44,557 bases of DNA from a virus. Below, piece after piece: positions 6,265 to 43,802 of the stretch (the stretch's first letter is position 1; every line of letters begins with the position of its first letter). The position numbers were made by a program, and so were the translations under genes. The notes beneath the pieces are model-generated. The model was not told the DNA's origin and did not search any database. It worked only from the letters and a program-made list of their open reading frames with translations. Location: the IMG/VR virus record IMGVR_UViG_3300032315_001065, positions 1 through 44,557 of that record, one strand, 5' to 3'.

Positions 6265-6340
6265 CAAAATTTGAATTTTTTGATTCCGGCCCAAGAATTT
6301 TTTAGGCGGAATTCAAGGTGCTAAAAATCAAATTTACTCC
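6265..6340 (+). repeat. Intergenic element, copy A (shared with 27305-27383)
   Basis: The 20-base core TTCCGGCCCAAGAATTTTTT at 6284-6303 is identical to 27327-27346. Both cores are flanked on the left by an A/T hairpin and a second GAWTTTTTTG run, and on the right by weaker similarity (TTCAA, then AAAAA, then ATTTACT at matching spacing). In this copy TTCCGGCC (6284-6291) can pair with GGCGGAA (6305-6311), forming a stem with one bulged base that encloses the endonuclease ribosome binding site. The left A/T hairpin with T-run could be a weak terminator for the gene ending at 6261. Confidence 0.6.
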
Positions 6341-6950
6341 TACAATGTTAATAAATAAGAAGATGGTACAAAAATTAAATAAATTCTATGTTTATGCTTA
6401 TCTTCGTGGGGATGGAACTCCTTATTATATTGGAAAAGGTAAAGATGATAGAGCCTGGAATACAACTCATACTATATCTGTACCCAAAGACAGATTTAAG
6501 ATAGTTATAATGGAATCTGGTCTCACCGAGCTCGGTGCTTTTGCTTTAGAAAGATTTTATATTCGTTGGTATGGCCGCAAAGATTTAGGTACAGGAATAT
6601 TAAGGAATAAAACAGATGGTGGTGAAGGTGTTTCAGGACTAATTTTTACTCATGAACACAAAGATAAGATATCAAAAAAGAAAAAAGGCATGATTCCATG
6701 GAACAAAGGAAAAAATGGAATATACTCAAAAGATAGCTTACAAAAAATGAGGCTTGCTAAATTAGGAAAAGCTTTTGATGCATCAAAACAAAGGAATAGA
6801 AAAAATCCAATACTTTGGAAAGTAAAATCACCTTCAGGTTTAATATTTAAAATTGACAACTTATATAAATTTTGTAAAGAAAACAATTTAAACCAAGGAA
6901 ATATGTTTAAGCATAACAAACATAAAGGATGGTTTTGTGAAAGACTATAA
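6318..6950 (+). CDS. GIY-YIG homing endonuclease (Seg-like) with NUMOD3-type DNA-binding repeats
   Basis: The N-terminal domain has [20 protein letters not shown], the GIY-YIG core in its variant form, followed by [11 protein letters not shown] with the likely catalytic Glu and [10 protein letters not shown]. Next comes a basic NUMOD3-like linker with [10 protein letters not shown], and a C-terminal module with [16 protein letters not shown] and KGWFCERL typical of phage homing enzymes. Such genes copy themselves into intergenic sites of related phages. The start is uncertain: GTG at 6318 follows AGGCGGA (6304-6310) at good spacing, giving 210 residues; ATG at 6345 or 6363 would shorten the protein but keep the catalytic domain. 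The gene is visibly A-rich compared with its neighbours, as expected for an insert. Confidence 0.85.
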
Positions 6951-21900: not shown

Positions 21901-22225
21901 CAATACCAACATCTATGTTTACTATAAAGTTTTATCGAGAAGCGACACGCAAACATTTGATTCGGGTAACTGGCAATTAATGACTTTGATTAACAATACA
22001 GATTCGTTATATTCACAAACCAGAGAAAGCACATTTGAATTTGTTGCAGCACCTGGTACAGGCGGAGTGGCACAGAATTATGTTGAATATATCAGCAATG
22101 TTTCTGGCCAAACTTATAACGATTTCAGTCAATTTGCTATTAAGGTTGTTTTAGCTACATCTGATAAGACTGCGGTACCTTACCTGTCGGATATTCGTGC
22201 AATCGCTTTACCATCACAGGTGTAA
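15935..22225 (+). CDS. Giant baseplate/fibre protein with N-terminal DUF4815
   Basis: At 2096 residues this is the largest gene in the window. The N-terminus (FNVDPYYDDFNPEKNFHRIL, FKPGFAVQARELTQSQSILQ) is the DUF4815 signature of large T4-like cyanophage baseplate or fibre-anchor proteins, which occupy the gp9/gp10 region. The middle is beta-rich and Thr/Asn/Ser-rich. Near residues 1520-1660 is DPVAQTFIIDKENYPNGIFI followed by a carbohydrate-module-like sandwich. Near 1870-1960 are two GGSGY modules like those in gp6, gp7-like and gp8. A clear GGAAAG lies before the ATG. A role as wedge periphery and fibre attachment platform is inferred. Confidence 0.75.
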   Translation: MSLNFNVDPYYDDFNPEKNFHRILFKPGFAVQARELTQSQSILQNQITSFADAIFSQNTPISGGKVTVNQNVFFLKLNPTDNSGAEIDVSSFDNGTVISGNGSVVGKVVATVSSTTTAAGGEGDPPTLIVSYISGNKFASGDTVFLNGTNITASMITESVGNPATGLSSVASISQGIFYVEGNFVVVNEQTTVLSKYTSNPSLRVGLNLTETIVDYIDDSSLLDPAFNATNYQAPGADRYVLRLSLQTRTLQFGDDDNFIELVRLVDGDIVKQVNNTVYSVIDDYFAKRTSDTNGDFIVNDYTLTPKVNTIDSEKYSLGISKGIAYVGGYRLENQSDVILTNDRARTQANVTNNPTFIGYGNYFFVNSSNGVFDVTTQPQVDFHTVDRSNIVLTDANSYNSTRAATAYIRNMVYNSTSNTANGAAYVYKAFVYNIQNQTLSANVSQFAPVNANNTYIKLPNTNQFSNVANAYAGVTVSIDTGTSAGDFRTITSYDATSKVAFVDRPFTVTLANNSVFTLRFDTTDFETMIRSTPGTPYTLTANATIDNSNKVNNVADGDVVLQNPNAPELLFTVGNPFVGNITDTSYTTTQVFRNVSFTVSGSNITAVLTFGSAPTSTLRFLGNGSLSADAISQNFQIIVTNPQSSGLRAGQTLPWSIGSRTCSVTGSGGTATFTTPTSDLSPFTATIIAKTFVSNGNDTSFVLKAKNLVTGNTAGVNLSGTTVATHTNVNLSQGQVYIAKAGVVAPGQPQKLYITDVKRIVKIIDTKSSGTAATTAMLTNPINDVTNRFTFDNGQRDSYYDFASITLKVGQPQIDGNLLVILDYYATTGGDGYYSVLSYLAPVSSSPEDYAEIPSYVSSGSGNYYQLRDSLDFRPSLINAQSSFTIRTSSSGSGAAGAYIPVDLTEFQSDYDFFLGRYDKLVLSKDRSFEIIQGTPSVNPLSPIEPDGSLVIANLYHDPYTAYIPGEASGVLPSLSIERVKNKRWLMSDISALEKRVNNIEYYTALNLLEKGASSLQIPDGNGLNRFKNGILVDDFSSYAASDAALSDYYVSINRRTKQMTAAQEVQNFPLQSLSLAYNMGQLDAVSANNLGFKISKSSYSNFFTLPYTTANVVSQRIASRTTNLNPFLVALNQGIVTLSPPMDNWVDTQRAPDLLIVDPNLQVYRASDQVNVLQVGDWKTTVSTTTDRVVERNNTVLRDTGGNFAGLTQINQVTTYTEQQQQTVLGYYDKLNSSYVETAGFITDVSVLPYIRPQFLVFNAYGMTVNTDVNFYFDNGLINKYIRKPSVLELSNVSGSFTDGDTVGYLAGGNFSPAARIVSFYRYPNDSTRCRLYLAGDVVGQTFNAGVTIRNAQFNAGGQYQTSTASGTIVSFTHNGGVIVNVNTSTNITLAATASNTDIYSGKTLYVISGTGVGQSATISSYNGTTKVATLSTPITAAARDVYSIGDLATNEAGMVSGVFALPGGTFNTGQRTFRVDNSVGGNITSATSISEATFHASGLQVTKQGVNYASSIDSAKNTFTQTADRTNVTSYTYVTPWDPVAQTFIIDKENYPNGIFIDSIKLFFKTKPTNYAPVELTIVGTLNGYPNGDTLDNSQVVLTNDNIKISNNPHYLDPNTYTVFKFPAPVYLESNKLYAFIAKCPTSNEYTIYTAENGDTAIPSSVKNLPTDPTPTAITKISSAPYVGNLFLSQNSQTWTADQNESMMFTIDRCVFSVGTQPTLQFVVPNKLPYRKLTEEGLSYYLNPNTINGAASSVANTNVIVDAFNISTTDFVPGSTTLSYSYASTLNSTKTAAPTRGVTPGKYGTPTYDDIYLNDGLGERVLVANSNTSFSLFANMTSVDDAVSPMISDDGLGVYTINWKINNLPVSNSMITIANGGSGYNVNTTSVTVTSANGFGTGATAVANVANGVIQSIFITNGGSGYATTPTITISDANTSPGTGAIVTIAGETSSSGGNAEARYITKRVILNQGFESGDMRVYFTAYRPVNTNIYVYYKVLSRSDTQTFDSGNWQLMTLINNTDSLYSQTRESTFEFVAAPGTGGVAQNYVEYISNVSGQTYNDFSQFAIKVVLATSDKTAVPYLSDIRAIALPSQV

Positions 22226-31000: not shown

Positions 31001-32123
31001 TAACAATTTTGCTGCAGCTGCATATACACAAGCCAATACAGCTAATGCACGTGCATTTAATACTGTATTAAAATCTGGCGACACCATGAGTGGTGCATTG
31101 AACATTGCTTCAAGTGCAACAGGCACCAATACATGGGATTCTGCACTTGGTGTAAATGGTTCAATTGCATCAAACAACAATCTATATCTCAAAGGCACAG
31201 GTTATTTTGGCCTAGCCAATGGTCAAGTATTATTCCCTAATGCACTTATTGAAGCAATTGGTAACAGTTCGTCATATGCACAGATTGTTATGCAGAACAA
31301 AAATGTTAACGTCAATGCTTCAGCTGATTTTGTAGCAACTGCTGACAATGGTTCTGATAGTGATACCTTCATCAATATGGGTATCAATTCATCATTATAC
31401 AATCAAGCAGGTTTTGAATTAACAGGACCAAATGATGGATATTTGTATGTTTCAGGTAATACATCAACAGGTGGCGGCGCTCTTGTATTAAGCACAACAA
31501 CACCTAAAGACATTGTATTTTCTCTCAATGGTCAAGGCGTTAATTCTGAAATTGCTCGATTCCAATTTAATACTGGATTGGTGTTAAAGAATCGTATCAC
31601 TTTTGCTGATGCAACAACACAAAATACGGCAGCTGCACCTGCAAACTATACACAATCAGCATTTAATACAGCCAATAATGCATCTCAAACTGCTCAAGCG
31701 GCTTATAACAAAGCGAACACGGGCAATCCTTACGAATCTAACACATCATTTTCAACAACGTCAGCCAATCAAGTGATGGATATGTTCAGTTCTTCTGTTT
31801 ATAGAACTGCAAAATATTTAATTCAATCGGTTAGTGATTCGGATGTACACAGCACAGAAATTCTTTTGAATCATAATGATATTAATGTGTTCATTGTTGA
31901 ATATGCAAATAATTATACCACACCTTTAATATCCGTTGATGGTGTAATTAATTCAGGAAATGTAGTGATTTATGTAACACCCTTTAATTCCGATACTACG
32001 GTAGATTTTATAAGAACAACATTGGTTTCTAGAATACCATCTGGTCCTGTTGGTGATTTAATGTTGCAATCCGGTACACAGGATTTGATGATTGATTCTG
32101 GAGCAGAAGATTTAAACACATAA
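28026..32123 (+). CDS. Long tail fibre with coiled-coil-like 28-residue repeats
   Basis: This is a 1365-residue fibre. The N-terminus LQILRSSVNNAPQSLLDGQL, AFSYKSGVLYIGS is a virion-anchoring domain of aquatic phage fibres. Residues about 75-520 and 660-880 are built from 28-residue units (TQNTRLNSIETINTDQNTAI, SIIQGVDA) with a 14-residue hydrophobic spacing that fits a trimeric coiled coil, interspersed with YAASSYAQANTNA units. Between them, at about 550-650, is the conserved LSVLGTTTTVNTNLLEVNDP domain. A Gly tract at about 955 and a domain shared with 12340-14505 (FINMG, DGYLYVSG, ITFADATTQNTAA, about 1095-1210) follow. The C-terminal end is MLQSGTQDLMIDSGAEDL. Probably a long host-recognition fibre. 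Confidence 0.82.
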   Translation: MANTSLQILRSSVNNAPQSLLDGQLAFSYKSGVLYIGSNTNILTIGGNAIVSFAQSAFNQANTVTANLTNNLVYIQGVNNTQNVRLNSIETVNQDQNTAISIIQGTNATQNVRLNSIETVNQDQNTAISIIQGTNVWQNTEIAAVSNYAHFIGNYANTTAVNLGYVNQYAASSYAQANTNAQNIIFLNQYAKSGYDTANLATANTIYTQGVDATQNTWIASNNALQVGINDTQNTRLNSIETVDVSQNTRMTIIEGVDATQNIRLGSIETVDVAQNNRMTIIEGVDATQNAWITSNVIYFQSVDDTQNNWISSNVAYFQSVDSTQNNWISANQAYFQGVDNSQNTRMSIIEGTNATQNVRLNSIETVNQDQNTAITIIQGVDATQNVQIAGIQGVDLAQNTRITEVNQYAESAYATANSAQTNTIFTQGVDVTQNVRLSSIETINNDQNTRMSIIESVDNTQNTRLNSIETVNVDQNTAIAIIQGTDATQNVRLNSIETINQNQNTTITQVNQFAQSAYDHANTKFASAGGTITGPVVISGNNNLTVTGNLSVLGTTTTVNTNLLEVNDPMILLANGNFYSDTLDIGFAGSYNDGANAHTGLFREHTNKDYYLFQGYIPEISGNNDINISDPSFRTANLNADYVKANVIATTAVIGGVNFANYVSLISGIDATQNTRLNSIETINNDQNTTITQVNQYAASAYQTANQTNQYAQSAYDHANNAYNYANTSISYNDGINATQNTRIGGIEGVDLTQNTRLNAIETINTDQNTAISIIQGVNLGQNATITSVNQYAVSSYNQANTNAGNISIIQGIDNTQNSWISSNVSYIAGVDDTQNTRIQSIETINTDQNTAISIIQGVNLGQNATITSVNQFAQAAYNKANTGAAAVTYLANAVLFANSTGVVSNSSSLSFYSSNNTLVVANISAPTLYTTSGGVVFPDGTVQTTAGGGGGGGGDSGIDQFARNTANSAQANTIVTQGVDVTQNNNIIAINNFAAAAYTQANTANARAFNTVLKSGDTMSGALNIASSATGTNTWDSALGVNGSIASNNNLYLKGTGYFGLANGQVLFPNALIEAIGNSSSYAQIVMQNKNVNVNASADFVATADNGSDSDTFINMGINSSLYNQAGFELTGPNDGYLYVSGNTSTGGGALVLSTTTPKDIVFSLNGQGVNSEIARFQFNTGLVLKNRITFADATTQNTAAAPANYTQSAFNTANNASQTAQAAYNKANTGNPYESNTSFSTTSANQVMDMFSSSVYRTAKYLIQSVSDSDVHSTEILLNHNDINVFIVEYANNYTTPLISVDGVINSGNVVIYVTPFNSDTTVDFIRTTLVSRIPSGPVGDLMLQSGTQDLMIDSGAEDLNT
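28267..28434 (+). repeat. 84-bp tandem repeat inside the long fibre gene
   Basis: Copies start at 28267 and 28351, and a third separated copy starts at 29092. Each encodes the 28-residue unit and the copies are nearly identical in DNA. A further 75-bp exact duplicate lies at 30308-30382 and 30551-30625. Conservation at silent positions indicates recent duplication or gene conversion. Confidence 0.88.
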
Positions 32124-32126
32124 ATA
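32119..32126 (+). promoter_or_regulatory. Late promoter (CATAAATA)
   Basis: CATAAATA overlaps the stop codon of the long fibre and ends 30 nt before the ATG at 32157. AAGGA lies between promoter and start. It is the same octamer and spacing as at 534 and 40387. Confidence 0.68.
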
Positions 32127-32156: not shown

Positions 32157-33944
32157 ATGCCAAAAACACTACAACTAAGACGGGGAACAACCGCTGAGAT
32201 TACTGCAAATACACCTGCATCAGGTGAGTTGTTTGTTGATACACAAAAGAAAACTGTTACTGTTGGTGATGGATCCACAGCAGGAGGCATAATCCTTGCA
32301 AGAGATGATAGGGTTTCTGATGTTTATGGCGTAGCTAACACCAAACAAGACACTCTAGTATCTGGCACAAATATCAAAACAATTAACGGAACATCATTGC
32401 TAGGCAGTGGTAATATACCAGTAAGTGGTGGCGGCAGTACAGGTGACTGGACATTCACTGCTAACGTAGCAAATGTATCATTCAACGATGCAGCACAAAT
32501 CAGTACCAGTGGTAATGTGACAGCCAATGTTACAACAACTAATAATTACACATCATCAAATTGGCCAGCTCCAAATCCGTTACGGACTGCTTTCAATCCT
32601 GGCCAACTGACACTGCCGCTATCAAGTTCATTTACTCCAACATTCTCAACTATTCCAGTTGGATCAACAATATCCTTTACTACAATCAACGGCACCACTG
32701 GTACTTATACAGGAAGAGTAACTGCTGTAGAATATTTAGGAGCCCAAATTTCTTGGATATTATATTATCAAAATACAAGTCAATATCCTACTGGCTCATT
32801 TGATGAACTTACTACTTTATCAGTTTCCACTACTGTTCCTGTGACATCAAATGTATCTGGCACATACATATTTGAAACTGATGGTACATTTGTGACCGAT
32901 TCTGCATTGGCCGGCGATGTTCTCATTGACAACAACATTGTCACTCCTTTGCCCATAGTCACGGTGGATCCTTATGGCAATGTAACTGAAACACCACAGC
33001 CCTTGGTCGTCAACGGCAACTTGAGTGTGACTGGTAATGTTACTAGTACTAATATGTCCACACGGGTTGCCATTGGTTCCAGTGCTGGTCTAACTAACCA
33101 AAATCTTGACGCTGTGGCCGTTGGCCCCAATGCCGGTCAAACAACTCAAGGCGCTGGCGCTGTGGCCATCGGTACCGGAGCTGGCCAGATAACTCAAGGT
33201 GGAATTGGTGTGGCCATTGGTTATCGTGCTGCCAACGCAGCTCAAGGCACACGAGGTATTGCTATTGGTAACCAGGCTGCTCAAACTACACAAAGTACGG
33301 ACGGTGTGGCCATCGGTACCGGGGCTGGCTCGTTAAGTCAAGGTGAAGGTTCGGTTGCCATTGGGCGAGGGGCCGGTCAAACCGTTCAACGTAACAGCGC
33401 TGTTGCGATTGGTGAAAATGCGGCCGCAGGCAGTCAAGGCAGAAACTCGATAGCAATTGGCCTACAGAGTGGCTTTACAAGTCAAAGCCAGGATGCTGTG
33501 GCCATTGGTTACGGTGCTGGTTATCAATCACAAGGCACTCAAACTGTTGCTGTTGGTTACCAAACCGCCATAACAAATCAAGGTAACTATTCCGTTGCCA
33601 TTGGTACTGAGGCCGGACAAACCAGTCAAAGCGCCAATGCCGTTGCCATCGGTGTTCTTGCAGGAAAGACCTCCCAAGCCAATTCTGCTATTGCTATTGG
33701 TGACCAAGCTGGTTTTCTTGGGCAAGGTCAAAATTCTATAGCAATTGGACGGCTTGCTGGCTCCAACTATCAAGGCGCACGCTCGATTTGTATAAATGCC
33801 ACCGGCTCTGTATTAACTTCAAGTGCCGAGGAAATATTCGTAGTCAAACCAGTCCGCAATGGTGGCACCGGTGGTAGTTTACCAAGTGGATTCTTCAACA
33901 TGGCCTACAACCCAACCACCGGCGAAATCATCTACTGGTCATAA
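32157..33944 (+). CDS. Tail fibre with YadA-type beta-roll head
   Basis: This is a 595-residue fibre. The N-terminus LQLRRGTTAEITANTPASGE, LFVDTQKKTVTVGDG resembles the N-terminal domain of phage major tropism determinants and many fibres. The middle (about 85-300) is beta-rich with LLGSGNIPVSGGG. Residues 304-543 are 15 consecutive 16-residue repeats of the form VAIGxxAGxTxQxxxA, the left-handed parallel beta-roll of trimeric autotransporter heads such as YadA. The C-terminus is FVVKPVRNGGTGGSLPSGFF ending in TGEIIYWS. It probably forms a trimeric adhesive tip. It has its own late promoter and AAGGA site and directly precedes the glycan cassette. Confidence 0.85.
   Translation: MPKTLQLRRGTTAEITANTPASGELFVDTQKKTVTVGDGSTAGGIILARDDRVSDVYGVANTKQDTLVSGTNIKTINGTSLLGSGNIPVSGGGSTGDWTFTANVANVSFNDAAQISTSGNVTANVTTTNNYTSSNWPAPNPLRTAFNPGQLTLPLSSSFTPTFSTIPVGSTISFTTINGTTGTYTGRVTAVEYLGAQISWILYYQNTSQYPTGSFDELTTLSVSTTVPVTSNVSGTYIFETDGTFVTDSALAGDVLIDNNIVTPLPIVTVDPYGNVTETPQPLVVNGNLSVTGNVTSTNMSTRVAIGSSAGLTNQNLDAVAVGPNAGQTTQGAGAVAIGTGAGQITQGGIGVAIGYRAANAAQGTRGIAIGNQAAQTTQSTDGVAIGTGAGSLSQGEGSVAIGRGAGQTVQRNSAVAIGENAAAGSQGRNSIAIGLQSGFTSQSQDAVAIGYGAGYQSQGTQTVAVGYQTAITNQGNYSVAIGTEAGQTSQSANAVAIGVLAGKTSQANSAIAIGDQAGFLGQGQNSIAIGRLAGSNYQGARSICINATGSVLTSSAEEIFVVKPVRNGGTGGSLPSGFFNMAYNPTTGEIIYWS
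33066..33785 (+). repeat. 15 x 48-bp YadA-head repeats
   Basis: Fifteen in-frame 48-bp units without indels encode 16-residue turns beginning V/I-A-I/V-G. Unlike the other repeats in the window they are diverged in DNA, so they are older or under selection for variation. A degenerate 16th turn (ICINATG) ends the array. Confidence 0.92.
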
Positions 33945-33952
33945 GTCAACCC

Positions 33953-34108
33953 ATGTTATTGAAAAATGTTAAGATTGATCCTTGCTCGTATTTTGTAGGC
34001 AACGAGCTGGATCTGTTGACATGGTGGGTAACAGACTTGGCAAGGTTTACCACAGCACAAAATTTAGCCGCAGTAAACAGCAAAATAAGTAGATTGAAAC
34101 GAAGATAA
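33953..34108 (+). CDS. Small ORF (51 residues) sharing a basic tail with the second glycosyltransferase
   Basis: ATG at 33953 opens a 51-residue frame ending TAA at 34106-34108, between the YadA-type fibre and the glycan cassette. It begins MLLKNVKIDPCSYFVGNELD and ends NLAAVNSKISRLKRR. The last 19 residues match the end of the 34864-35745 glycosyltransferase (NLARVNEKISRLKRV) at about 13 positions, and both have KIDP about 40 residues from the end. No strong ribosome binding site is seen. It may be a small protein of the cassette or the remnant of a deleted glycosyltransferase. Without it, the 182-base gap 33945-34126 shows nothing else. Confidence 0.5.
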   Translation: MLLKNVKIDPCSYFVGNELDLLTWWVTDLARFTTAQNLAAVNSKISRLKRR

Positions 34109-34126
34109 ACCGAACTCTAATTTATT

Positions 34127-34867
34127 ATGATACCAAAAACAATTTGGCAAACCTATAAGACGCAGTATCCCGACTCACAATCAGTTGATTCAATACGGAC
34201 CTGGCTGAAGCTAAATCCAGACCATGTTTGGTATTATTTTGACGATGCTCGATGTGAACGATTTGTGCGTGACCACTTTGACACCGAGTTTTATCAAATG
34301 TACATGTCTTTGCCACTTGGAGTAATGAAAGCCGATGTCTGGCGAGTGGCGGTTGTTTATGTCTACGGCGGAATCTACGCAGACCTGGATACCCAATGCC
34401 TGGTACCGGCCGCACAATGGATTCATGATACGGATGAACTAATTGTTGGAGTGGAAACTCCACACGGCGCCATCAACAATTTTGTATTTGCTGCTGCACC
34501 TCAGCATCCAGCAATATACACAGTTTTACAAACACTATTGGAATTTTACAAAGCCCCCTGGTACTTGAGCAAGGACTCACCCACACCTGTCCAAGACTTT
34601 GGAGCAAATGCCTGGTCTTATGGTCTATTGCGGCATTATGGATTAAATGATGCAGAGTCAATGTTCCAAGGCGGAGACTATTACAACACCGTAGAACAAG
34701 TCAAACAAGAAAAAACAAAATTTTTCTCATACAAAAGTAATGCTTTTTCACCTGCACCAACACATGATACACTGGTACATCATCTGACTGGTAGTGTGTC
34801 TTGGGACAACAGATATGAATCTTGGAGAACCCAACAGCAAGATGTATTTGGAGTGTGCGGACAATGA
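34127..34867 (+). CDS. GT32-type glycosyltransferase (DXD sugar-binding family)
   Basis: This 246-residue protein opens MIPKTIWQTYKTQYPDSQSV, the typical start of OCH1/GT32-like enzymes, then has LPLGVMKADVWRVAVVYVYG and GIYADLDTQCLVPA. The ADLDTQ segment carries the DXD motif that binds metal and nucleotide-sugar in the Gly_transf_sug family. It would transfer a sugar from an NDP-sugar to a glycan acceptor in the cytoplasm. It lacks the DUF4214 module of the later cassette enzymes. It ends in an ATGA overlap with the next gene, starting the coupled cassette. The G+C content looks higher than in 35742-38347, hinting at separate origins. Confidence 0.85.
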   Translation: MIPKTIWQTYKTQYPDSQSVDSIRTWLKLNPDHVWYYFDDARCERFVRDHFDTEFYQMYMSLPLGVMKADVWRVAVVYVYGGIYADLDTQCLVPAAQWIHDTDELIVGVETPHGAINNFVFAAAPQHPAIYTVLQTLLEFYKAPWYLSKDSPTPVQDFGANAWSYGLLRHYGLNDAESMFQGGDYYNTVEQVKQEKTKFFSYKSNAFSPAPTHDTLVHHLTGSVSWDNRYESWRTQQQDVFGVCGQ

Positions 34868-35745
34868 AACAAATTAAATTTGTCACGACCTTTTCCAAAA
34901 ATGGATATTATGTATACGGCCAATATTGGATAGAAAGTTTTTTAGAGTTTACTAAAAATTACAAACACATTACGGCTGTAGTGTATGTTGACGGAATGAA
35001 TCCAAATACATTGGATTATGACAGAAACCGAGTCAGTGTAGTTGATTTTGACACAGCCCTTCCTGACCACTCGACTTGGGTCAAACTGTTTAGAGAAAAG
35101 TCGACACACGAGCAGTGGAACAAAGACCTGGCAGTCAAGTTTAGTTTCAAATCATTTGTCATGATTGACCAATTAAAAAACAACACCAACTGTTATGTGA
35201 TATGGTTAGATGCTGACTGTATTTTTAAAAGTTACGAGTTTGATACATTTGTGACAGATGCGTTGCAAAATAATTTTATAGCCTGCCAAAAAGAATCTGG
35301 CAGCGAGCATGTCGAAAGTGGCATTGTTATATTTGATGCCGAACACGCAGACAAGCAACGATTCCTGGATCGATTTGAATCGTTTTACATGAATCCAGTT
35401 GAGTTCAATTCGTTTGGTCAGTTCTTTGACGGATATGCCATCAATCGAGCACTGGCCAACACTGGTGTGTCTTGCAATGACCTAAATAAAAACTACGGCC
35501 TTGGCGGAATACAATCAGACCCCGACTGCACATTCATGAATCCGTTGTTGAAGGAACGTTTTTATCACAACATTGGCATTACTGGAAAACGAAATTACCA
35601 GAAATGGCAAGACTTTGCCAAAATTGACCCGTTGTTTCAATTGATACACGGTGTAAACGATCCTGTGCCAAAAACTGTAGAACAAATAACACAAGAAAAT
35701 TTGGCGAGAGTCAATGAAAAAATCAGTAGGTTAAAAAGAGTATGA
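34864..35745 (+). CDS. GT-A-fold glycosyltransferase (DxD)
   Basis: The frame extends upstream to 34822, but the start at 34864 (MKQIKFVTTFSKNGYYVYGQ) gives an ATGA overlap with the previous stop, like every later junction, and matches a natural first strand. The protein is 293 residues. YVIWLDADCIFKS at about 106-118 is a clear DxD motif at the end of a strand, and VESGIVIFDAEH plus NYGLGGIQSDPDCTF look like acceptor-side elements of GT-A transferases. The family is not certain. The C-terminal 20 residues (QITQENLARVNEKISRLKRV) form a basic helical tail shared with the small ORF at 33953. Confidence 0.75.
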   Translation: MKQIKFVTTFSKNGYYVYGQYWIESFLEFTKNYKHITAVVYVDGMNPNTLDYDRNRVSVVDFDTALPDHSTWVKLFREKSTHEQWNKDLAVKFSFKSFVMIDQLKNNTNCYVIWLDADCIFKSYEFDTFVTDALQNNFIACQKESGSEHVESGIVIFDAEHADKQRFLDRFESFYMNPVEFNSFGQFFDGYAINRALANTGVSCNDLNKNYGLGGIQSDPDCTFMNPLLKERFYHNIGITGKRNYQKWQDFAKIDPLFQLIHGVNDPVPKTVEQITQENLARVNEKISRLKRV

Positions 35746-37349
35746 AAGTAAGTGCCTGTATCATTGCATTAAATGAAGAACAATACATAGAGCGAGCAAT
35801 TCTTAGTTTAAAAAAAATAGAATTGGTAGAAGATATTGTTGTGGTTGATGGTGGAAGCACAGACAATACTGTTAAAATTTGCAAACAATTGGGTTGTAAC
35901 GTTGTGGTTAATCCATGGCCAAACGATTTTTCCATACAAAGAAACCTCGCATTGAGTTTGTGTAAAAATGATTGGATAATTATTGCAGATGCTGATGAAT
36001 GGTATTGTGAAGATACTAGAAATTATTTAAATCAATACTTAGTTAATATACCAGAAAACATTGGAGCTATTAAAATAAATGAAATAAGTGAGTTGGGATG
36101 TAAAAATATAAATGACACACCACTACAAGCAAATGACCTTGAAAAATACTATGTTGGTTATTCACAATTAGAAAATAAAGAAATACGCAATATTAAATTT
36201 CAAGTAGATGATAGAACCATTATATTAACTTACTCAACACGAATAGTTAACAAGACTCGTGGGCAATGGGTAAATCGAGTGCATGAAATTTTTGAACTAA
36301 ATCCAAATTATCATTCTGTGTCATTACCTCAAGAATATATTATTAATCACCAAAAAAGTATAGAAAAGCAGTATCTCAGTGATTCTAGATATGATGCGTT
36401 AATGCATAACGAATGTTTATATACAGCAAATTATGATGATATTATAAATAAAACTTCACAAAAATCTGTATTATTATTGGACACTATATTTTATAAATTA
36501 ATTACAGAAGTTTCTCCTTGTGACATTTTTATTGAAGCCGGTGCATTTAATGGTCAAACATCTAGATTAGTTCACCAAATTTTGCCTAACACAAAGGTAT
36601 ATGCATTTGAAGCAAATACATATAATTATAATGAATTTAAATCATTGTTTGATAATACTACAATAAATTATTTAAATATTGCTATATCTAATCAAACTGG
36701 TGAAATAACTTTTAAAATACACACCAAAATTGGTGAATTTAACATTCCTAAAATAAAAGGAAACGATTCGTTATTATCTCGCAGCGATGATAATGTAATC
36801 TATGAAAATATCACCGTACCAGCCGTTACGTTAAACGGTTATTTTAATGATAAAATTAACACACTAGATTCTGTAGCTCTGTGGGTAGATTTAGAAGGTG
36901 CGGCACATCAAGCACTTGAAGGTGCAACTGACATATTGCCTAATGTGAATGTCATAAAAATAGAAGTGGAAAATTATGAATTTTGGCAGAATCAAAAATT
37001 AGATACAGACATCCGCATATTTTTATCACAACACGGTTTTGTTCCAATATTGCGTGATTATGAATATACTAATCAATATAATATTTTATTTTGCAAATAC
37101 AATATAATTGAATCTCAAAAATTTCAAAACTTGGCTAATACCTATAATTTAATTATGAATAGGTCTGTTGGCACAATTAGTGAAATTAATCGTATAAAGT
37201 CAATCAATGAATTATATAAAAAAATATTAAAAAGAGAAGCTGATTCATCAGGTCTACATCATTATCAGAGTAGTAGGTATTCTATAGACGAAATTGAAAA
37301 TATATTGTTACAATCTGACGAATATAAAACATTAAATGTGACACAATGA
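35742..37349 (+). CDS. Fusion: GT2 glycosyltransferase + FkbM methyltransferase + DUF4214
   Basis: A 535-residue protein. Residues 1-235 are GT2: MKVSACIIALNEEQYIERAI, EDIVVVDGGSTDNTVKICKQ and IADADEWY (the DXD equivalent), with VHEIFELNP further on as in WaaE-like enzymes. Residues about 260-450 are an FkbM-type SAM methyltransferase: DIFIEAGAFNGQTSRLVHQI (motif I), VYAFEANTYNYNEF, and WVDLEGAAHQALEGATDIL. Residues about 486-531 are DUF4214 (INELYKKILKREADSSGLHH, ILLQSDEYKTL). It could add a sugar and methylate the glycan. Both flanks overlap by ATGA. It is strongly A+T-rich relative to 34127-35741. Confidence 0.87.
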   Translation: MKVSACIIALNEEQYIERAILSLKKIELVEDIVVVDGGSTDNTVKICKQLGCNVVVNPWPNDFSIQRNLALSLCKNDWIIIADADEWYCEDTRNYLNQYLVNIPENIGAIKINEISELGCKNINDTPLQANDLEKYYVGYSQLENKEIRNIKFQVDDRTIILTYSTRIVNKTRGQWVNRVHEIFELNPNYHSVSLPQEYIINHQKSIEKQYLSDSRYDALMHNECLYTANYDDIINKTSQKSVLLLDTIFYKLITEVSPCDIFIEAGAFNGQTSRLVHQILPNTKVYAFEANTYNYNEFKSLFDNTTINYLNIAISNQTGEITFKIHTKIGEFNIPKIKGNDSLLSRSDDNVIYENITVPAVTLNGYFNDKINTLDSVALWVDLEGAAHQALEGATDILPNVNVIKIEVENYEFWQNQKLDTDIRIFLSQHGFVPILRDYEYTNQYNILFCKYNIIESQKFQNLANTYNLIMNRSVGTISEINRIKSINELYKKILKREADSSGLHHYQSSRYSIDEIENILLQSDEYKTLNVTQ

Positions 37350-38347
37350 ATAAAGAAATAGCACATTTATTTTGGCATGGCGAACTTACCAATTTAGAAA
37401 AAGTTTGTATTCAATCATTTGTTAAGCAAGGATTTGATACAAGAATTTGGTCATATACCAATATACAGGTAGATGGAGCAGAATCTTGTGATGCTAGGTT
37501 AATATTACCAGAAGAACATTTGACAAAATACAAACAACAACATTTTAAAATTACTGATGGTTCAAAAGAATTTCATACATCTATGTCTGCGTTTTCGGAT
37601 GTATTCAGGTGGAAACTCATTAATAAATTTGGTGGTTGGTGGTTTGATACTGATTGTTATTGTTTAAAATCTTCAGAAGAATTTAAAAAACTTAGAGAAA
37701 ACAAACCATTTGTTGCTGGATTACAGAACTCTAGCAATTTATCGGTTAATACGGCAGCAATTTATGCTGATTATGATATATCATTAAAGTTTTGCAATCA
37801 AATAAAAGCTGTATGCGAGTATTATAATTATAATTTACCTCAATGGGGAGATATTGGTCCAAACTTACTTACCAAATTTGTTCTAGAACAAAATTTAATT
37901 GACAATGTTGTATCAATAGAAAAAATTTATTCAATAGAAACTCATCAGTTTAATTTGTTTATAGATGCTGAATTAAAACAAACGGCCAAATCTTTGATTG
38001 TAAATTCCTACATATCTCACATATGGCATTCTCAATTGTCTGCACATGATGTTGATAAAAACAACCCTCCAGATGGCTCGTTGTTAAAAGAGTTTTATGA
38101 CGGAAGTTATACAAATACCGAATTAGAAAATAGTGTTGTCATTTCAAATTATAAAGGTTTATTTGAAAGAACTTTATTTGAAAAATACGTTAGTATATCT
38201 GAACTATATAAAAAAATACTCAACCGAAAACCTGATAATGAAGGTTTAGAACACTATTTAAATTCAAATAAAAGTATTGAAGAAATTAAAAATATATTGT
38301 TACAGTCTGACGAATACATGGTCAAAAAAAAAATTGCACAACAATGA
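37346..38347 (+). CDS. GT32-like glycosyltransferase + DUF4214
   Basis: This 333-residue protein starts MNKEIAHLFWHGELTNLEKV. It has SAFSDVFRWKLINKFGGWWF then DTDCYCLKS, the sugar-binding DXD block of Gly_transf_sug/alpha-1,4-glycosyltransferase-like enzymes, and HIWHSQLSAHDVD, a likely C-terminal active-site His region. Residues about 283-330 are DUF4214 (ISELYKKILNRKPDNEGLEH, YLNSNKS, NILLQSDEYM). The DUF4214 part is very similar, even in DNA, to that of the preceding gene. ATGA overlaps join it to both neighbours. The sugar donor and acceptor are unknown. Confidence 0.84.
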   Translation: MNKEIAHLFWHGELTNLEKVCIQSFVKQGFDTRIWSYTNIQVDGAESCDARLILPEEHLTKYKQQHFKITDGSKEFHTSMSAFSDVFRWKLINKFGGWWFDTDCYCLKSSEEFKKLRENKPFVAGLQNSSNLSVNTAAIYADYDISLKFCNQIKAVCEYYNYNLPQWGDIGPNLLTKFVLEQNLIDNVVSIEKIYSIETHQFNLFIDAELKQTAKSLIVNSYISHIWHSQLSAHDVDKNNPPDGSLLKEFYDGSYTNTELENSVVISNYKGLFERTLFEKYVSISELYKKILNRKPDNEGLEHYLNSNKSIEEIKNILLQSDEYMVKKKIAQQ

Positions 38348-39075
38348 GTAATAATATGAAAATACTTAACAACGAACAAATTAAAATTAACATAGGTGCC
38401 GGAAGCACCAGCTTTCCAGGATACTTAAATTGTGACTACTCTAATTATTATAATCCAGACTTTGTGTTTGACTTAGAAAAAGACACATGGCCTTTTGAAA
38501 ACAATAGTGTGACTCATGTAATTGCTCATCATGTGTTGGAGCATTTGGGCGAAGGATACTTTCACGCATTGAAAGAACTATACAGAGTTTGTGCTCCTGG
38601 TGCCAGTATAGATATTAAAGTTCCGCACTATACCAGTCACAATTTCTTTCATGATGCCACACACAAGCGAGCGATAACTGCTCCTGGAATGAGCATGTTT
38701 GGGCAAAAAAGAAACCACAATGATTTTCTTGCCAATGCCGCCACATCAAGATTGGGACAATATCTAAATATTGATTTAGAATTAATCTCATATTCATATG
38801 TGCCCGATGACCGATACAAAGAAATTTTACATGGCAAAACAGTAGAACAAATTGAAGAATATGCTTATGAAAAAAATAATATCATATCTGAAATAAGTAT
38901 CAAAATGATGGTGATTAAAGGAACCAGAGCTGAACAAATCAACGCATACTATGTGAATTATCTAAATCGCAACGCGGATGAAGGAGGGCTGAACTTTTAT
39001 TTGAACTCTGACATGACTTTGGAACAAATATTACACGACATAAAAAATTCAGACGAATACAAAACAATTCAATGA
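38344..39075 (+). CDS. Class I SAM methyltransferase + DUF4214
   Basis: This is a 243-residue protein. INIGAGSTSFPGYLNCDYS is a SAM-binding motif I, DLEKDTWPFENNSVTHVIAH then HVLEHLGEGYFHALKELYRV are motifs II/III typical of type 11 methyltransferases, and FHDATHKRAI matches the DPTHxR-like loop common in polysaccharide-locus methyltransferases. Residues about 199-243 are a short DUF4214 (INAYYVNYLNRNADEGGLNF, SDEYKTIQ). It probably methylates a sugar of the glycan made by its neighbours. ATGA overlaps on both sides. A second in-frame ATG at 38356 is a possible alternative start. Confidence 0.85.
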   Translation: MSNNMKILNNEQIKINIGAGSTSFPGYLNCDYSNYYNPDFVFDLEKDTWPFENNSVTHVIAHHVLEHLGEGYFHALKELYRVCAPGASIDIKVPHYTSHNFFHDATHKRAITAPGMSMFGQKRNHNDFLANAATSRLGQYLNIDLELISYSYVPDDRYKEILHGKTVEQIEEYAYEKNNIISEISIKMMVIKGTRAEQINAYYVNYLNRNADEGGLNFYLNSDMTLEQILHDIKNSDEYKTIQ

Positions 39076-40364
39076 TACCAAAAATTTTACTGCAAACGTC
39101 AAAGAACAAGTTGGATCAATATGTATTGGATGACCTTGGTAATTTTATTGCTGGTTGGAAATATTTGCATTTTACAGATTTGGAAATTGTACAATTTTTC
39201 AAACACAACCCATTGCAACAGTTCCCAGACATAGTAGAAGTTTTTGAAAACATACCTCGTGGTGAGTACAAAGCAGATTTGTTTCGTTACTACTTTTTAT
39301 ATTTGAATGGTGGAGTTTTTGTAGACAGCGACTTGCAATTAAAAATTGATTTGAACTATTACGTTGAAAATTTTAGTTATTTTACAACACAGGCTTGCCA
39401 TCCAAATGAAACTTGTTATTTCCAAGGACTGTTGGCAGCAGAACCTAAGAACAAAATAATATACGAAGCCCTGGTTGACACATACAATTTATTTAAATCC
39501 AATCATCAGTTGAGTTTTTACACTGAGCTGTGTCACAGGTTTAAACAAATATCCTTAAAACACGAATCTGAGTATCTTGTTAAACTTTTTGATGAAGTGC
39601 CGCACGATGGGTATACAACAGTATTTGACAAACTTACTGGCAAAGATGTGGCTGTGCATTTTCATGAACCTGGAATTATTCCACCGCCGGTGCTGGGCGA
39701 AGAAAACACTAGTAGAAAACAAATAATTCGTGCAGTGTATTTAAATTATCTTAAACGTGAACCTGATGAATCTGGTTTACAAAACTATTTAAATACAAAT
39801 TTAGTAGTGGCAGAAATAGTCAACGACATTTTAAGTTCACAAGAGTTCAAAAAAGTTCGTGAAATGTTTCCTAGAAATACAATTGTTTTTGCCAATGGTG
39901 GTGACCAAACCAAAGAAAACATACCAGAGATGGATACAGAAGTAGAAAATGTTGAGTTTATTTTTGGTGTTGGTGGTGAAAACAAAATGAATTCATCTTC
40001 TTGGATACTTAAAGAATGGTCTCAACAAAAGGTTTACAGGAATTGGGGGCACCACACAACTTATTTTGAAAACGACACACACAACGTTAAATTAAAACGA
40101 TTGGTTTTGAATACAAATCAATCAATTAGTATGCAAAGGCACTTTAAGCGAAATGAACTTTGGTTTGTAGAAAACGGCCAAGGCGTGGTTTATACACAAA
40201 AAGATGGTGTAAAACAAGAAGTTCAACAGTTGGGAATCGATGATACTATTAAAATTGGCGTTGGAGAATGGCACCAACTAAAGAATACCGGAACACAACC
40301 TTTAATTATTGTTGAAATTCAGTATGGAGATTTGTGTGTGGAAAATGACATCGAGAGATTATGA
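39072..40364 (+). CDS. Fusion: GT32-like glycosyltransferase + DUF4214 + phosphomannose-isomerase-type cupin
   Basis: A 430-residue protein. Residues 1-210 are GT32-like: MIPKILLQTSKNKLDQYVLD, IPRGEYKADLFRYYFLYLNG, GVFVDSDLQLK (DXD). Residues about 216-262 are DUF4214 (IRAVYLNYLKREPDESGLQN, SSQEFKKV). Residues about 315-430 form a cupin like the C-terminal domain of type II mannose-6-phosphate isomerase/GDP-mannose pyrophosphorylase: YRNWGHHTTYFENDTHNVKL, SMQRHFKRNELWFVENGQG, EWHQLKNTGTQPLIIVEIQY, GDLCVENDIERL. Cupin metal-site His residues are visible (QRHFKRNE and WHQL). It may supply or shape a mannose-type donor and transfer it. It is the last gene of the cassette. The fusion order is unusual. 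Confidence 0.83.
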   Translation: MIPKILLQTSKNKLDQYVLDDLGNFIAGWKYLHFTDLEIVQFFKHNPLQQFPDIVEVFENIPRGEYKADLFRYYFLYLNGGVFVDSDLQLKIDLNYYVENFSYFTTQACHPNETCYFQGLLAAEPKNKIIYEALVDTYNLFKSNHQLSFYTELCHRFKQISLKHESEYLVKLFDEVPHDGYTTVFDKLTGKDVAVHFHEPGIIPPPVLGEENTSRKQIIRAVYLNYLKREPDESGLQNYLNTNLVVAEIVNDILSSQEFKKVREMFPRNTIVFANGGDQTKENIPEMDTEVENVEFIFGVGGENKMNSSSWILKEWSQQKVYRNWGHHTTYFENDTHNVKLKRLVLNTNQSISMQRHFKRNELWFVENGQGVVYTQKDGVKQEVQQLGIDDTIKIGVGEWHQLKNTGTQPLIIVEIQYGDLCVENDIERL

Positions 40365-40386: not shown

Positions 40387-40394
40387 CATAAATA
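40387..40394 (+). promoter_or_regulatory. Late promoter (CATAAATA) after the glycan cassette
   Basis: CATAAATA lies in the 67-base gap 40365-40431 and ends 37 nt before the TTG start at 40432. It restarts late transcription for the second fibre block. AAGGGGAG at 40416-40423 follows as the ribosome binding site. Confidence 0.68.
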
Positions 40395-40431: not shown

Positions 40432-41292
40432 TTGTCAATTAAAAACTTTCAAATAAAAAATGGTTTATCGGTTAATGGCCAAGAAGTTATTGATGGTAAT
40501 GCCAATGGCGACTTTACTTCAGTAATTATATCAGGTATAGACATACTTGAATATACTCAAGAAGCATATAATCAAGCAAATACCGTTAATAATACGGCTA
40601 ATACGGCTCAATCCGCTTTTAACACCGCTAATGGTGCTAATGGTCTAGCTGTTGGTGCTTATAATCAAGCAAACGTTACCATCGGGGTTGATGCTACCCA
40701 AAATACTAGATTAAATGCTATCGAAACAACTAATGCTAACCAGAATACTGCTATTACATTAGTTAATCAATTCACACAGTCGGCATATAATCAAGCCAAT
40801 ACGGATTATACTACATTATCAATACAAACATCTACATCATCATCCAATGGACTTTATGTTCCAGTAATTACAGTATCAGCCAATGGCCGTGTTACTGCCA
40901 TATCAAACACATTAATAACTACTACTGGTGGTACAGTATACACCAGAAAGACCACAAATTCATTCATAAATAACAATGAAGGTATTATTGCAGACACCTC
41001 AGCTGGTTCTTTTACCATTACACTTCCTTCGACACCAACTGTTGGTAATCAAGTTGTTGTTGCTGATGGTAATAATTTTGCTACTAACAATCTAACTATT
41101 GCTCGCAATGGTTCAACTATTGAAGGTATTGCAGAAGATTTAATTTTAGATATTCAGGGTGTGTTGGTCACATTTATCTACGATGGTTCCACTTGGGAAA
41201 TTTATACACAAGTTGGTGCTCAGGGTGGTGTAAGTACATCATCTGGTGGAACTACTGGATTTGAACAAAACTTTCTTTTAATGGGTGCTTAA
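40432..41292 (+). CDS. Short fibre protein with TQN repeats, TTG start
   Basis: This 286-residue fibre probably starts at TTG 40432: AAGGGGAG lies 8 nt upstream, and the nearer ATG (40425) is out of frame and stops after four codons. The N-terminus MSIKNFQIKNGLSVNGQEVI is a typical phage fibre base module. It has YNQANTVNNTANTAQ and one TQNTRLNAIET / NQNTAITLVNQF unit (about 84-117). The second half is beta-rich, with DTSAGSFTITLPSTPTVGNQ and LTIARNGSTIEGIAEDLILD, a phage fibre tip fold. It is coupled to the next gene (stop and ATG adjacent). Confidence 0.78.
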   Translation: MSIKNFQIKNGLSVNGQEVIDGNANGDFTSVIISGIDILEYTQEAYNQANTVNNTANTAQSAFNTANGANGLAVGAYNQANVTIGVDATQNTRLNAIETTNANQNTAITLVNQFTQSAYNQANTDYTTLSIQTSTSSSNGLYVPVITVSANGRVTAISNTLITTTGGTVYTRKTTNSFINNNEGIIADTSAGSFTITLPSTPTVGNQVVVADGNNFATNNLTIARNGSTIEGIAEDLILDIQGVLVTFIYDGSTWEIYTQVGAQGGVSTSSGGTTGFEQNFLLMGA

Positions 41293-41619
41293 ATGCCAAC
41301 AGTTTACAAAGTATTAGGTCAGGTTAGACCATCATCAGCCACAGCAACAACTCTTTACACAGTTCCGAATTCTACTTCAGCAGTATGTAGCACATTATCT
41401 ATTTGTAACACAGGTACAAGTACAACTTATCGTATTGCTATTCGCCCCTCGGGTGGTGCGATTGCCGACATTCATTATATAGTGTATGAATCAGCGATTG
41501 AACAATATGATACCGCAATGTTGACTCTTGGAATTACTCTTGCTGCCACAGACGTTGTAACCGTTTATTCTAATACAGCTAACGTAGTATTTAATTTGTT
41601 TGGCTCGGAGATCAGTTAA
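41293..41619 (+). CDS. Small beta-sandwich virion protein
   Basis: This 108-residue protein begins MPTVYKVLGQVRPSSATATT and contains LYTVPNSTSAVCSTLSICNT and TYRIAIRPSGGAIADIHYIV. Proteins of this pattern sit beside fibre genes in T4-like aquatic phages and are generally annotated as structural. The start directly follows the fibre stop, and its own stop overlaps the next ATG (TAATG), so three fibre-region genes are translationally coupled. Probably a tip or connector protein; the function is unproven. Confidence 0.65.
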   Translation: MPTVYKVLGQVRPSSATATTLYTVPNSTSAVCSTLSICNTGTSTTYRIAIRPSGGAIADIHYIVYESAIEQYDTAMLTLGITLAATDVVTVYSNTANVVFNLFGSEIS

Positions 41620-43802
41620 TGTCGGTACGTACAGTTAGCGCATCACCTACCACAAGCAACGCAGGATTGAATACAAAGTCGTTGACAAGTAGCACATCCA
41701 CTATTTCCAGTGGTTCTGTTACTCCGTGGGTGCGAAACTCTCAATGGTTAACATTGCCAACAGTTTCGGACACAGAGCAAAAAGTTGTAGGATTATATGC
41801 AATACAGGAGAACGCTAACTTTATTGCTTTAACTTGCTCAGGCGCTTATACGGTTAACTGGGGTGATGGTACCATTCAAAACTTTGCCTCCGGGGTTACT
41901 GCTTATTATGAATATTCATATACCAATTCTGCTTTTGATGGCACTCTAACCAATGAAGGTTACAAACAAGCTATCGTAACTGTTATGCCACAGTCAGGAC
42001 AAAACTTAACTAGTTTTAATATTGTAGTCAAACACAATCAAAGTGGTTTGCAAAATGGATATTCAACGGGGTGGTTAGACCTAACCCTTTCACTTCCAAA
42101 TTGTACCACTTTGACTATAGGAAATGGTTCTGGAACAAGCACCGTGATACACGGATTTTTAGATCAAGTTACTATTTTAAACCATGCAGTGACTAGTATG
42201 TCTAATATGTTTTTTGGTTGTACTTCACTTCAATCAGTACCTTTGTTTAATACTGCTACGGTGACTGATATGAGTAATATGTTTAATGGTTGTGGTTCAC
42301 TTCAATCAGTTCCATTATTTAATACTGTTGCTGTGACTAATATGAATAATATGTTTAACAACTGCCGGCGCTTGCTATCGGTTCCTTTGTTTAATACTGT
42401 TGCAGTGACTAATATGAGTAGTATGTTTATTGGTTGTATTTCACTTCAATCGGTTCCTTTACTTAATACTGTTGCTGTGACTAATATGAATAATATGTTT
42501 AACGCCTGCCGACAATTAGAAACAATTCCATTATTCAATACTGGTGCAACAACTAGTATGAGTAGTATGTTTAATGGTTGTGTTTCACTTAAATCAGTTC
42601 CATTATTCAATACTGCTGCAGTGGCCGATATGTCTGGTATGTTTACTAATTGTACTGCACTCCAATCAGTTCCATTATTTAATACTGGTGCGGTGACTAA
42701 TATAAATAGTATGTTTAACACTTGCCGACAATTAGAAACAATTCCATTATTCAATACTGGTGCAGTGACTAATATGAATAATATGTTGGCTAATTGTAAT
42801 TCACTTCAATCAGTTCCATTATTTAATACTGGTGCGGTGACTAATATATCTGGTTTGTTTGCTAATTGTAGTTCACTTCAATCAGTTCCATTATTTAATA
42901 CTGTTGCTGTGACTAATATGAGTACTATGTTTAGTGGTTGTGTTTCACTTAAATCAGTTCCATTATTCAATACTGCTGCGGTGACTAATATGTCTAATAT
43001 GTTTAATGGTTGTAGTTTACTGCAATCAGTTCCATTATTTAATACTGCTGCGGTGACTAATATGAGTGATATGTTTAATGGTTGTAGTTCACTTCAATCA
43101 GTTCCATCATTCAATACTGGTGCAGTAACCACTTCTACTCAAATGTTTATTTCTTGTTTTGGCCTTTCACGCATACAAGTAACCGGAATGAGGGTTTCTT
43201 TTTCTACAGCAAACTGCAAACTTTCTAGCACAGCACTCAACGAAATATTTACAAACCTAACACCAGTAACTACAACACAGACACTTACTATCACAAGTAA
43301 TTATGGCGTTGACTCTGTGGTAACAAAATCTGTTACTACAACAGCACAATCACTAACAGTACCGATGGCAGTTACATCTGATTTGGTTGTAGGTGAATTT
43401 GTTACTGGTGTTGGAACTGGTATTACAACCGGAGTTTCCGTTGCTTCCGATGTAGCAGCAAACACATTTACATTAACAAACCACGGTCTTACAAACGGAA
43501 AAAGTGTTTCTTTTTCTACATTAGGGACTACAACTGGTATTTCGGCATGGACTATTTATTTTGTTGTTAATGCAACAGCAAACACATTTCAAGTTTCACT
43601 TACCGATGGTGGTGCTGCAATTGACTTGACTGGTACCAATGCATCTTTAAACGCAAGATATCCAAGTATTATCACTGCAATTACGCCAGGAGTGTCGATA
43701 ACATTAGACACACCGGCAGCTACATCAGCATCGACTACTTTGTCGTTTAGATCACTAAATTCATCCACGGCACTTTTAAAAAATTGGACTATTACCTTTT
43801 AA
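41619..43802 (+). CDS. Adhesin with BspA-like DUF285 24-residue repeats
   Basis: This is a 727-residue protein. An N-terminal section has LTCSGAYTVNWGDGTIQNFA (about 68-90), a PKD-like strand seen before DUF285 arrays. Residues 203-514 are 13 uninterrupted 24-residue repeats, consensus SLQSVPLFNTxAVTNMSNMF followed by NxCx, the BspA-like leucine-rich (DUF285) surface protein repeat. Every repeat has Cys at position 23, so stacked turns would form a Cys ladder. The C-terminal region (about 590-727) has LTNGKSVSFSTLGTTTGISA and FVVNATANTFQVS, a phage fibre module. It probably binds a host surface ligand. DUF285 in a phage fibre block suggests exchange with bacterial surface genes. Confidence 0.83.
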   Translation: MSVRTVSASPTTSNAGLNTKSLTSSTSTISSGSVTPWVRNSQWLTLPTVSDTEQKVVGLYAIQENANFIALTCSGAYTVNWGDGTIQNFASGVTAYYEYSYTNSAFDGTLTNEGYKQAIVTVMPQSGQNLTSFNIVVKHNQSGLQNGYSTGWLDLTLSLPNCTTLTIGNGSGTSTVIHGFLDQVTILNHAVTSMSNMFFGCTSLQSVPLFNTATVTDMSNMFNGCGSLQSVPLFNTVAVTNMNNMFNNCRRLLSVPLFNTVAVTNMSSMFIGCISLQSVPLLNTVAVTNMNNMFNACRQLETIPLFNTGATTSMSSMFNGCVSLKSVPLFNTAAVADMSGMFTNCTALQSVPLFNTGAVTNINSMFNTCRQLETIPLFNTGAVTNMNNMLANCNSLQSVPLFNTGAVTNISGLFANCSSLQSVPLFNTVAVTNMSTMFSGCVSLKSVPLFNTAAVTNMSNMFNGCSLLQSVPLFNTAAVTNMSDMFNGCSSLQSVPSFNTGAVTTSTQMFISCFGLSRIQVTGMRVSFSTANCKLSSTALNEIFTNLTPVTTTQTLTITSNYGVDSVVTKSVTTTAQSLTVPMAVTSDLVVGEFVTGVGTGITTGVSVASDVAANTFTLTNHGLTNGKSVSFSTLGTTTGISAWTIYFVVNATANTFQVSLTDGGAAIDLTGTNASLNARYPSIITAITPGVSITLDTPAATSASTTLSFRSLNSSTALLKNWTITF
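42225..43160 (+). repeat. 13 x 72-bp DUF285 repeats
   Basis: Thirteen in-frame 72-bp units with no indels. Several are near-identical in DNA (for example the TTCACTTCAATCAGTTCCAT segment recurs), so copy number can change by recombination while keeping the reading frame. Confidence 0.92.

Follow-up and report, generated by a model that had tools for sequence, protein, structure and literature searches.

The stretch of DNA analysed here, the window, is a 44,557-base IMG/VR virus record (IMGVR_UViG_3300032315_001065), a partial genome in which six genes for enzymes of glycan type, g1 to g6, form a single cassette between tail-fibre genes (Table 1). The six open reading frames (ORFs) begin where the initial annotation had placed them, and domain and tail-family matches bear out its statement that fibre-type genes flank them on both sides. 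Consecutive genes of the cassette overlap by the four bases ATGA at all five internal junctions, an arrangement found at none of the 27 remaining junctions of the window; the chance of all five overlaps landing in the cassette is 1/C(32,5), or about 5e-6.

A coupled cassette of six predicted soluble enzymes

Five of the six proteins are of glycosyltransferase (GT) type (three GT32, one GT8-like and one GT2-FkbM), and not four as first counted, because g6 too begins with a GT32 domain. The GT32-type proteins g1, g4 and g6 carry a Gly_transf_sug/Caps_synth domain in which the D..R, GG and DxD columns are invariant across the three, and their nearest solved relative is the alpha-1,6-mannosyltransferase 9n3s. 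A homologue of g1 at 98% identity is found in a second contig (G002), and g4 has relatives dispersed among bacteria (Bacteroidota, a few Proteobacteria), whose context gives no clue to function. There is no Pfam match for g2, which was modelled from a seven-sequence alignment (mean confidence score, pLDDT, 67); the model has a GT-A fold, comes closest among solved structures to the GT8 enzymes glycogenin and LgtC (E ~2e-6), and shows the C-terminal tail NLARVNEKISRLKRV as a helix. The GT2-FkbM fusion and the S-adenosylmethionine (SAM)-dependent methyltransferase announced by the initial annotation are both present, as g3 and g5. Among solved structures, the GT2 domain of g3 is most closely related to GmaR and SunS-type peptide S-glycosyltransferases, and the SunS model TIGR04195 is its top GT model in NCBIfam (4.6e-15), at 55.4 bits against a cut-off of 350, which leaves g3 outside the SunS type proper. 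GmaR is the flagellin glycosyltransferase of Listeria, and GmaR and SunS-type enzymes glycosylate proteins or peptides in the cytoplasm. In contrast to them, g3 has FkbM and DUF4214 in place of their other domains.

DUF4214, missed at first reading, is present on g3, g4, g5 and g6 (5e-4, 4e-5, 2e-4 and 6e-5; two copies over the Pfam cut-off and two slightly under), the copies being about 32-60% identical to each other for the pairs computed. One small domain is therefore common to four different catalytic proteins of one operon. It gave no credible match among solved structures, was absent from 35 related virus records, and was not confirmed in any hit of a pattern query of bacterial genomes; it occurs in 5/120 genomes of one bacterial phylum. 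The bacterial examples examined are mostly large proteins (nucleotidase, serralysin-like, carboxypeptidase) and not transferases, and some adjoin type I secretion or glycan genes. We infer that DUF4214 may serve here as a docking or co-assembly module.

By its domains and alignments the last gene is chimeric, with GT32 and DUF4214 joined to the tail end of a phage nucleotidyltransferase-cupin protein. Residues ~270-430 of g6 match the C-terminal two thirds of such proteins from other T4-like phages end to end; the N-terminal part with the nucleotidyltransferase active site is missing, and GT32 and DUF4214 stand in its place. The phosphomannose isomerase (PMI)-type cupin reported for this gene is there as a domain (5e-18), in the company of that remnant, and its PMI activity is doubtful because the metal motif is unlike the one usual in PMI enzymes: QRHFKRNELW stands in place of QxHHHRxEHW, and the histidine-rich pattern is not kept. 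The match to TIGR01479 is confined to this cupin (61 of 373 bits), so that g6 has neither the full guanylyltransferase/isomerase (GMP/PMI) architecture nor the cupin motif of a type II phosphomannose isomerase. The model of g6 is confident in the cupin (pLDDT mostly 85-94) and poor in the remainder, and was for that reason left out of the fold search.

No hydrophobic stretch of membrane-span strength occurs in the six proteins, and none of them has a domain of an initiating glycosyl-phosphate transferase, flippase, polymerase, ABC exporter or ligase. The cassette is not by its membership a self-sufficient O-antigen or capsule locus, although such parts may be the host's or lie outside the partial genome. 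Third-position GC content (GC3) runs along the cassette by gene pair at 0.38-0.40, 0.19 and 0.29-0.32, three levels consistent with assembly from several sources.

A 51-codon ORF that the initial annotation did not list stands before g1. Its C-terminal 17 residues are 76% identical to the C-terminus of g2, giving two near-identical tails (34055-34108, NLAAVNSKISRLKRR; 35670-35745, NLARVNEKISRLKRV); among the loci compared for it, the only other case was the copy in G002.

Table 1. Features of the cassette and its surroundings (window positions)
Feature	Position	Strand	Basis or remark
Cassette of six genes	34127-40364	+	between tail-fibre genes
g1, GT32-type glycosyltransferase, DxD intact	34127-34867	+	Gly_transf_sug PF04488 1.4e-13
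g2, phage-type GT-A (GT8-like) glycosyltransferase, WLDADC motif, C-terminal helix	34864-35745	+	model
g3, GT2 (4e-20) + FkbM methyltransferase (4e-16) + C-terminal DUF4214	35742-37349	+	Pfam
g4, Caps_synth (2e-6) / GT32-type (8e-5) glycosyltransferase + C-terminal DUF4214	37346-38347	+	Pfam
g5, SAM-dependent methyltransferase (Methyltransf_11, 7e-6) + C-terminal DUF4214	38344-39075	+	Pfam
g6, GT32 (1e-6) + DUF4214 + nucleotidyltransferase C-terminal remnant + PMI-type cupin (5e-18)	39072-40364	+	Pfam, alignment
g6 segment co-linear with residues ~93-253 of phage nucleotidyltransferase-cupin proteins	39879-40364	+	41-46% identity
DUF4214 copy of g3	37179-37346	+	
DUF4214 copy of g4	38183-38344	+	
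DUF4214 copy of g5	38929-39072	+	
DUF4214 copy of g6, internal	39702-39854	+	
51-codon ORF, start MLLKNVKID, end NLAAVNSKISRLKRR	33953-34108	+	96% identity in G002
Upstream tail-fibre gene, 595 residues, Mtd_N N-terminus, YadA-head-like repeats	32157-33944	+	
Downstream fibre-type gene, TTG start	40432-41292	+	phage tail families, best matches 1e-11 to 2e-7
Late-promoter-like CATAAATA	32119-32126	+	38 nucleotides upstream of fibre gene 32157
Late-promoter-like CATAAATA	40387-40394	+	45 nucleotides upstream of fibre gene 40432
2096-residue gene	15935-22225		positional equivalent of VrlC in Pelagibacter phage HTVC008M

A predicted late unit in the host-recognition island

The gene order of the window matches the late region of T4-like phages: gp25-type and gp6-type baseplate genes, the 2096-residue gene and, after it, many fibre-type genes in succession. 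HTVC008M and Methylophilales phage Melnitz have gp6-type proteins 38-39% identical to that of the window, and at least 80 uncultivated contigs have ones that are 53-83% identical. From these identities and the gene order, the phage is T4-like, of aquatic type, and a member of the pelagimyophage/cyanomyophage group or close to it. The window stops short of the neck genes, and neck-type genes come after the same slot in two relatives (L122 and L128); the cassette thus lies amid fibres between a VrlC-type gene and the neck genes, in a region of hypervariable content among related phages, which are the marks of the pelagimyophage host recognition cluster. The likeness to that cluster (Zaragoza-Solas et al. 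2020, PMC7029224) extends from the place to Mtd-, YadA- and collagen-type fibres, glycosyltransferases and radical-SAM cassettes. The passages of that paper on the cluster describe no sharing of DUF4214, no fully ATGA-coupled cassette and no slot-by-slot matching of enzyme and fibre.

Late promoters at the flanking fibres had been noted before, and the late-promoter-like CATAAATA indeed precedes both. The motif YATAAATA has 37 sites in 15 relatives, 20 of which fall 20-70 nucleotides upstream of ORF starts (1.3 expected). In the window its copies stand before genes 574, 32157 and 40432, and none was found in promoter position before or inside the cassette. By this motif the cassette lacks a separate late promoter, and it is predicted to be read with the upstream fibre from 32119, so that fibre, 51-codon ORF and cassette would form one late unit. 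In the relatives, enzymes of the slot either have YATAAATA directly upstream or share the copy of the fibre (own copy in L119 and L122). The enrichment and placement of the motif are in line with the late expression that had been proposed for the cassette.

Two other features of the window deserve mention: a homing-endonuclease-like ORF (NUMOD3 motif, 6318-6950) is wedged between tail genes, and a fibre-region protein (41619-43802) consists mostly of repeats of the DUF285 family (1.6e-66), whose name comes from Mycoplasma proteins.

Exchange of enzymes and fibres at the slot

We compared the slot behind the upstream fibre in six contigs: the window, G002 (contig 3300032293_001888), L119, L120, L122 and L128. 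The first 56-57 residues of the fibre (MPKTLQLRRGTTAEITAN) are 93-98% identical in other phages, and the remainder swaps. In G002 the fibre is followed by the same 51-codon ORF and then by g1 up to the contig end. In this independent contig the left junction thus recurs, its 60-base blocks being 88-100% (mostly 97-100%) identical in DNA, next to a fibre that is itself only 35-60% identical in parts; because the 51-codon ORF and g1 are nearly identical while parts of the fibre diverge, we place a recombination border near 33,880. For the right junction, a scan with the downstream fibre gave no orthologous junction elsewhere.

The other contigs have different enzymes in the slot. In L120 (13463-22192), L119 (7638-13742) and L128 (2770-6917) it holds a 2-oxoglutarate (2OG)-Fe(II) oxygenase and a GT4 enzyme, followed by collagen-like (Gly-X-Y) fibres, and L128 adds a methyltransferase-like gene. 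In L122 (5667-7991) it holds a sulfotransferase (PF00685 3e-15), a 2OG oxygenase and an adenylylsulfate (APS)-kinase-like protein with a nucleotidyltransferase-like C-terminus, possibly a sulfation module judging from these domains. By a strict repeat criterion, the GT4 family stands directly upstream of a collagen-like gene in 4/5 contigs; in the fifth, a shorter Gly-X-Y stretch follows at a distance of two genes. A GT4/collagen-like pair also sits at another place, upstream of gp25, in G001, and enzyme and fibre therefore appear to travel together.

The comparison with related phages that the initial annotation had proposed, namely whether cassette and neighbouring fibre co-vary, comes out favourably, though it is small. 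The cassette or g1 is found only with the same fibre C-terminal half (window and G002), and the four other slot contigs with readable downstream sequence have other enzymes and other fibre C-termini. The pattern is suggestive only: L119 and L120, being almost the same sequence, do not count as independent, and the comparison was set up once the pattern had been noticed.

Several observations on related enzymes stand beside this comparison. The pairing of a 2OG-Fe(II) oxygenase and GT4 with collagen-like fibres resembles the hydroxylation-plus-glycosylation of collagen. A GT4-type protein about 50% identical to that of the slot occurs in L022 (3-1574), and in G005/G008 (591-residue frames) a GT4-type frame, encoded on the other strand from the tail genes, seems to contain an FkbM domain as well. 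Halogenase-type and 2OG genes are found in or near the tail region of G016 and L008; the one in the tail/baseplate region of L008 (670-2277) is of tryptophan-halogenase type (PF04820 1e-109), with a 43% relative at 15300 of L104 (G016). In G022 (L109-L111; ~16.7-26.2 kb after base 48000), about ten genes lie between two fibre genes, including three radical-SAM-like proteins (CxxxCxxC motifs) and 2OG-oxygenase-like proteins.

A second full cassette was found neither by viral scans with g6, g1 or g3 nor by tblastn of g1-g6 against 50,697 phage records; apart from distant relatives of single genes, these searches returned only the g1 copy with which contig 3300032293_001888 ends. It could be argued from this, from the change of GC3 by gene pair and from the loss in g6 of both the active-site part of the nucleotidyltransferase and the usual histidine motif of the cupin, that the cassette is passing cargo, a patchwork of glycan genes acquired in a hypervariable island, partly non-functional and short-lived. 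We find this improbable: the six frames and their catalytic motifs are intact, the ATGA coupling is exact throughout, and the left part has kept its identity in a second contig despite the divergence of the adjacent fibre.

Fibres or host envelope as the acceptor

Of the initial interpretation, glycan-type enzymes in overlapping genes, set in the fibre block and with predicted late expression, stand; of the two acceptors then proposed, the phage's fibres and the host envelope, either may be the true one. We favour, with a probability of roughly one half, decoration of the virion's own fibres over late remodelling of the host envelope, on the strength of the predicted fibre-linked late unit, the other occupants of the slot, the co-variation, the soluble proteins and the kinship of g3 with GmaR and SunS. 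The other slot enzymes (2OG-Fe(II) oxygenases with GT4; sulfotransferase with APS-kinase-like protein) are of kinds that can act on proteins. That glycosyltransferases lie amid the fibres of such phages is already known, as is virion glycosylation in mycobacteriophages, which encode glycosyltransferases that modify structural proteins of the virion itself (Freeman et al. 2023, cited in PMC12619734 and PMC11256854). As those citing papers present it, the targets there are the capsid and the C-termini of the tail tube; here the candidates are fibres, the enzymes lie within the fibre island, and the system is known from sequence. In the literature searched we found no account of a cassette of this composition, of the DUF4214 common to four of its proteins or of fibre and enzyme types being swapped in matched fashion.

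Alternatively, the polysaccharide on the host surface, O-chain or capsule, could be what the enzymes remodel at a late stage of infection, either to exclude superinfecting phages or so that progeny do not adhere to debris, an alternative that we regard as less probable and yet take seriously. It is the published reading of pelagimyophage fibre-island glycosyltransferases, taken to be modifiers of the host O-chain in a paper that places 63 of 162 lipopolysaccharide (LPS)-related proteins in the island and gives GT8, the family that g2 resembles, as the most represented (PMC7029224). The domain set is also like that of capsule and O-antigen loci, and the g2 family and full-length nucleotidyltransferase-cupin proteins recur in a glycan cluster on the uvsW side of the T4-like marine phages L004, L244 and L248, together with KdsA-like and KdsB-like genes, that is, genes of KDO-synthesis type (the names uvsW, KdsA and KdsB being given by reading of the sequences). 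Unlike the cassette, that cluster lies away from fibres, and DUF4214 was not found in the record of it that was searched (G025). Against remodelling, the predicted co-transcription with a late fibre gene would be late for exclusion, and the 2OG oxygenases, sulfotransferase and collagen-linked GT4 of the slot are hard to see as O-chain tools. Remodelling would also need host parts, because the cassette has no lipid-linked initiation, flippase, polymerase or ligase.

Decoration of the fibres has its own difficulties. The fibre is a candidate acceptor only; the mix of GT32/Caps_synth, FkbM and PMI-type cupin is typical of polysaccharide loci; and the co-variation is based on about six contigs, with the fibre islands of several relatives, read in part, having fibres and no recognised enzyme. 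Few LPS GT2 enzymes are in the PDB, so that the nearest solved relatives of g3 are biased toward what has been solved. The cluster with KdsA-like and KdsB-like genes, which lies at a distance from fibres and contains relatives of g2 and of the g6 cupin, weighs on the same side. Occurrence away from fibres together with early-only expression would, according to the initial annotation, refute decoration; the former is what we see for relatives of g2 and of the cupin half of g6, but the cassette is predicted late and not early. Glycosylation of the phage DNA was considered as well and set aside, in view of the position in the structural region and of a cassette with no base-modification gene.

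If the fibres are the target, the cassette would be one of the alleles exchanged at a tailoring slot within the late host-recognition island, transcribed from the late promoter of the adjacent upstream fibre and translated as one coupled block. Its products would be six soluble enzymes, three of GT32 type, one GT8-like, one GT2 with FkbM and one free SAM methyltransferase, predicted to use nucleotide-diphosphate sugars of the host and SAM to build a short methylated glycan in the cytoplasm. In the order of steps that we envisage, the glycan would grow directly on side chains, Ser/Thr or others, of freshly synthesised fibres, the upstream 595-residue fibre being the first candidate, and DUF4214 on four of the enzymes may keep them together or dock them to a common partner. 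Tentatively, and with more doubt than assurance, one may go further and suppose that this lineage swaps matched pairs of fibre tip and fibre-modifying enzyme at one slot, diversifying host recognition or fibre stability post-translationally. The chemistries would then be a methylated glycan here, hydroxylation and glycosylation of collagen-like fibres in some relatives and sulfation in another, with the shared DUF4214 assembling four enzymes on one substrate in the present case.

Aquatic T4-like phages often carry glycosyltransferases amid their fibre genes, and the published guess for the target has been the host. With a slot in which the type of fibre and the type of enzyme vary in step, under late promoters, the alternative of a virion target can be put to a direct test. 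Should it hold, the chemical decoration of their fibres would be a common way for phages to alter host recognition or to protect the fibres.

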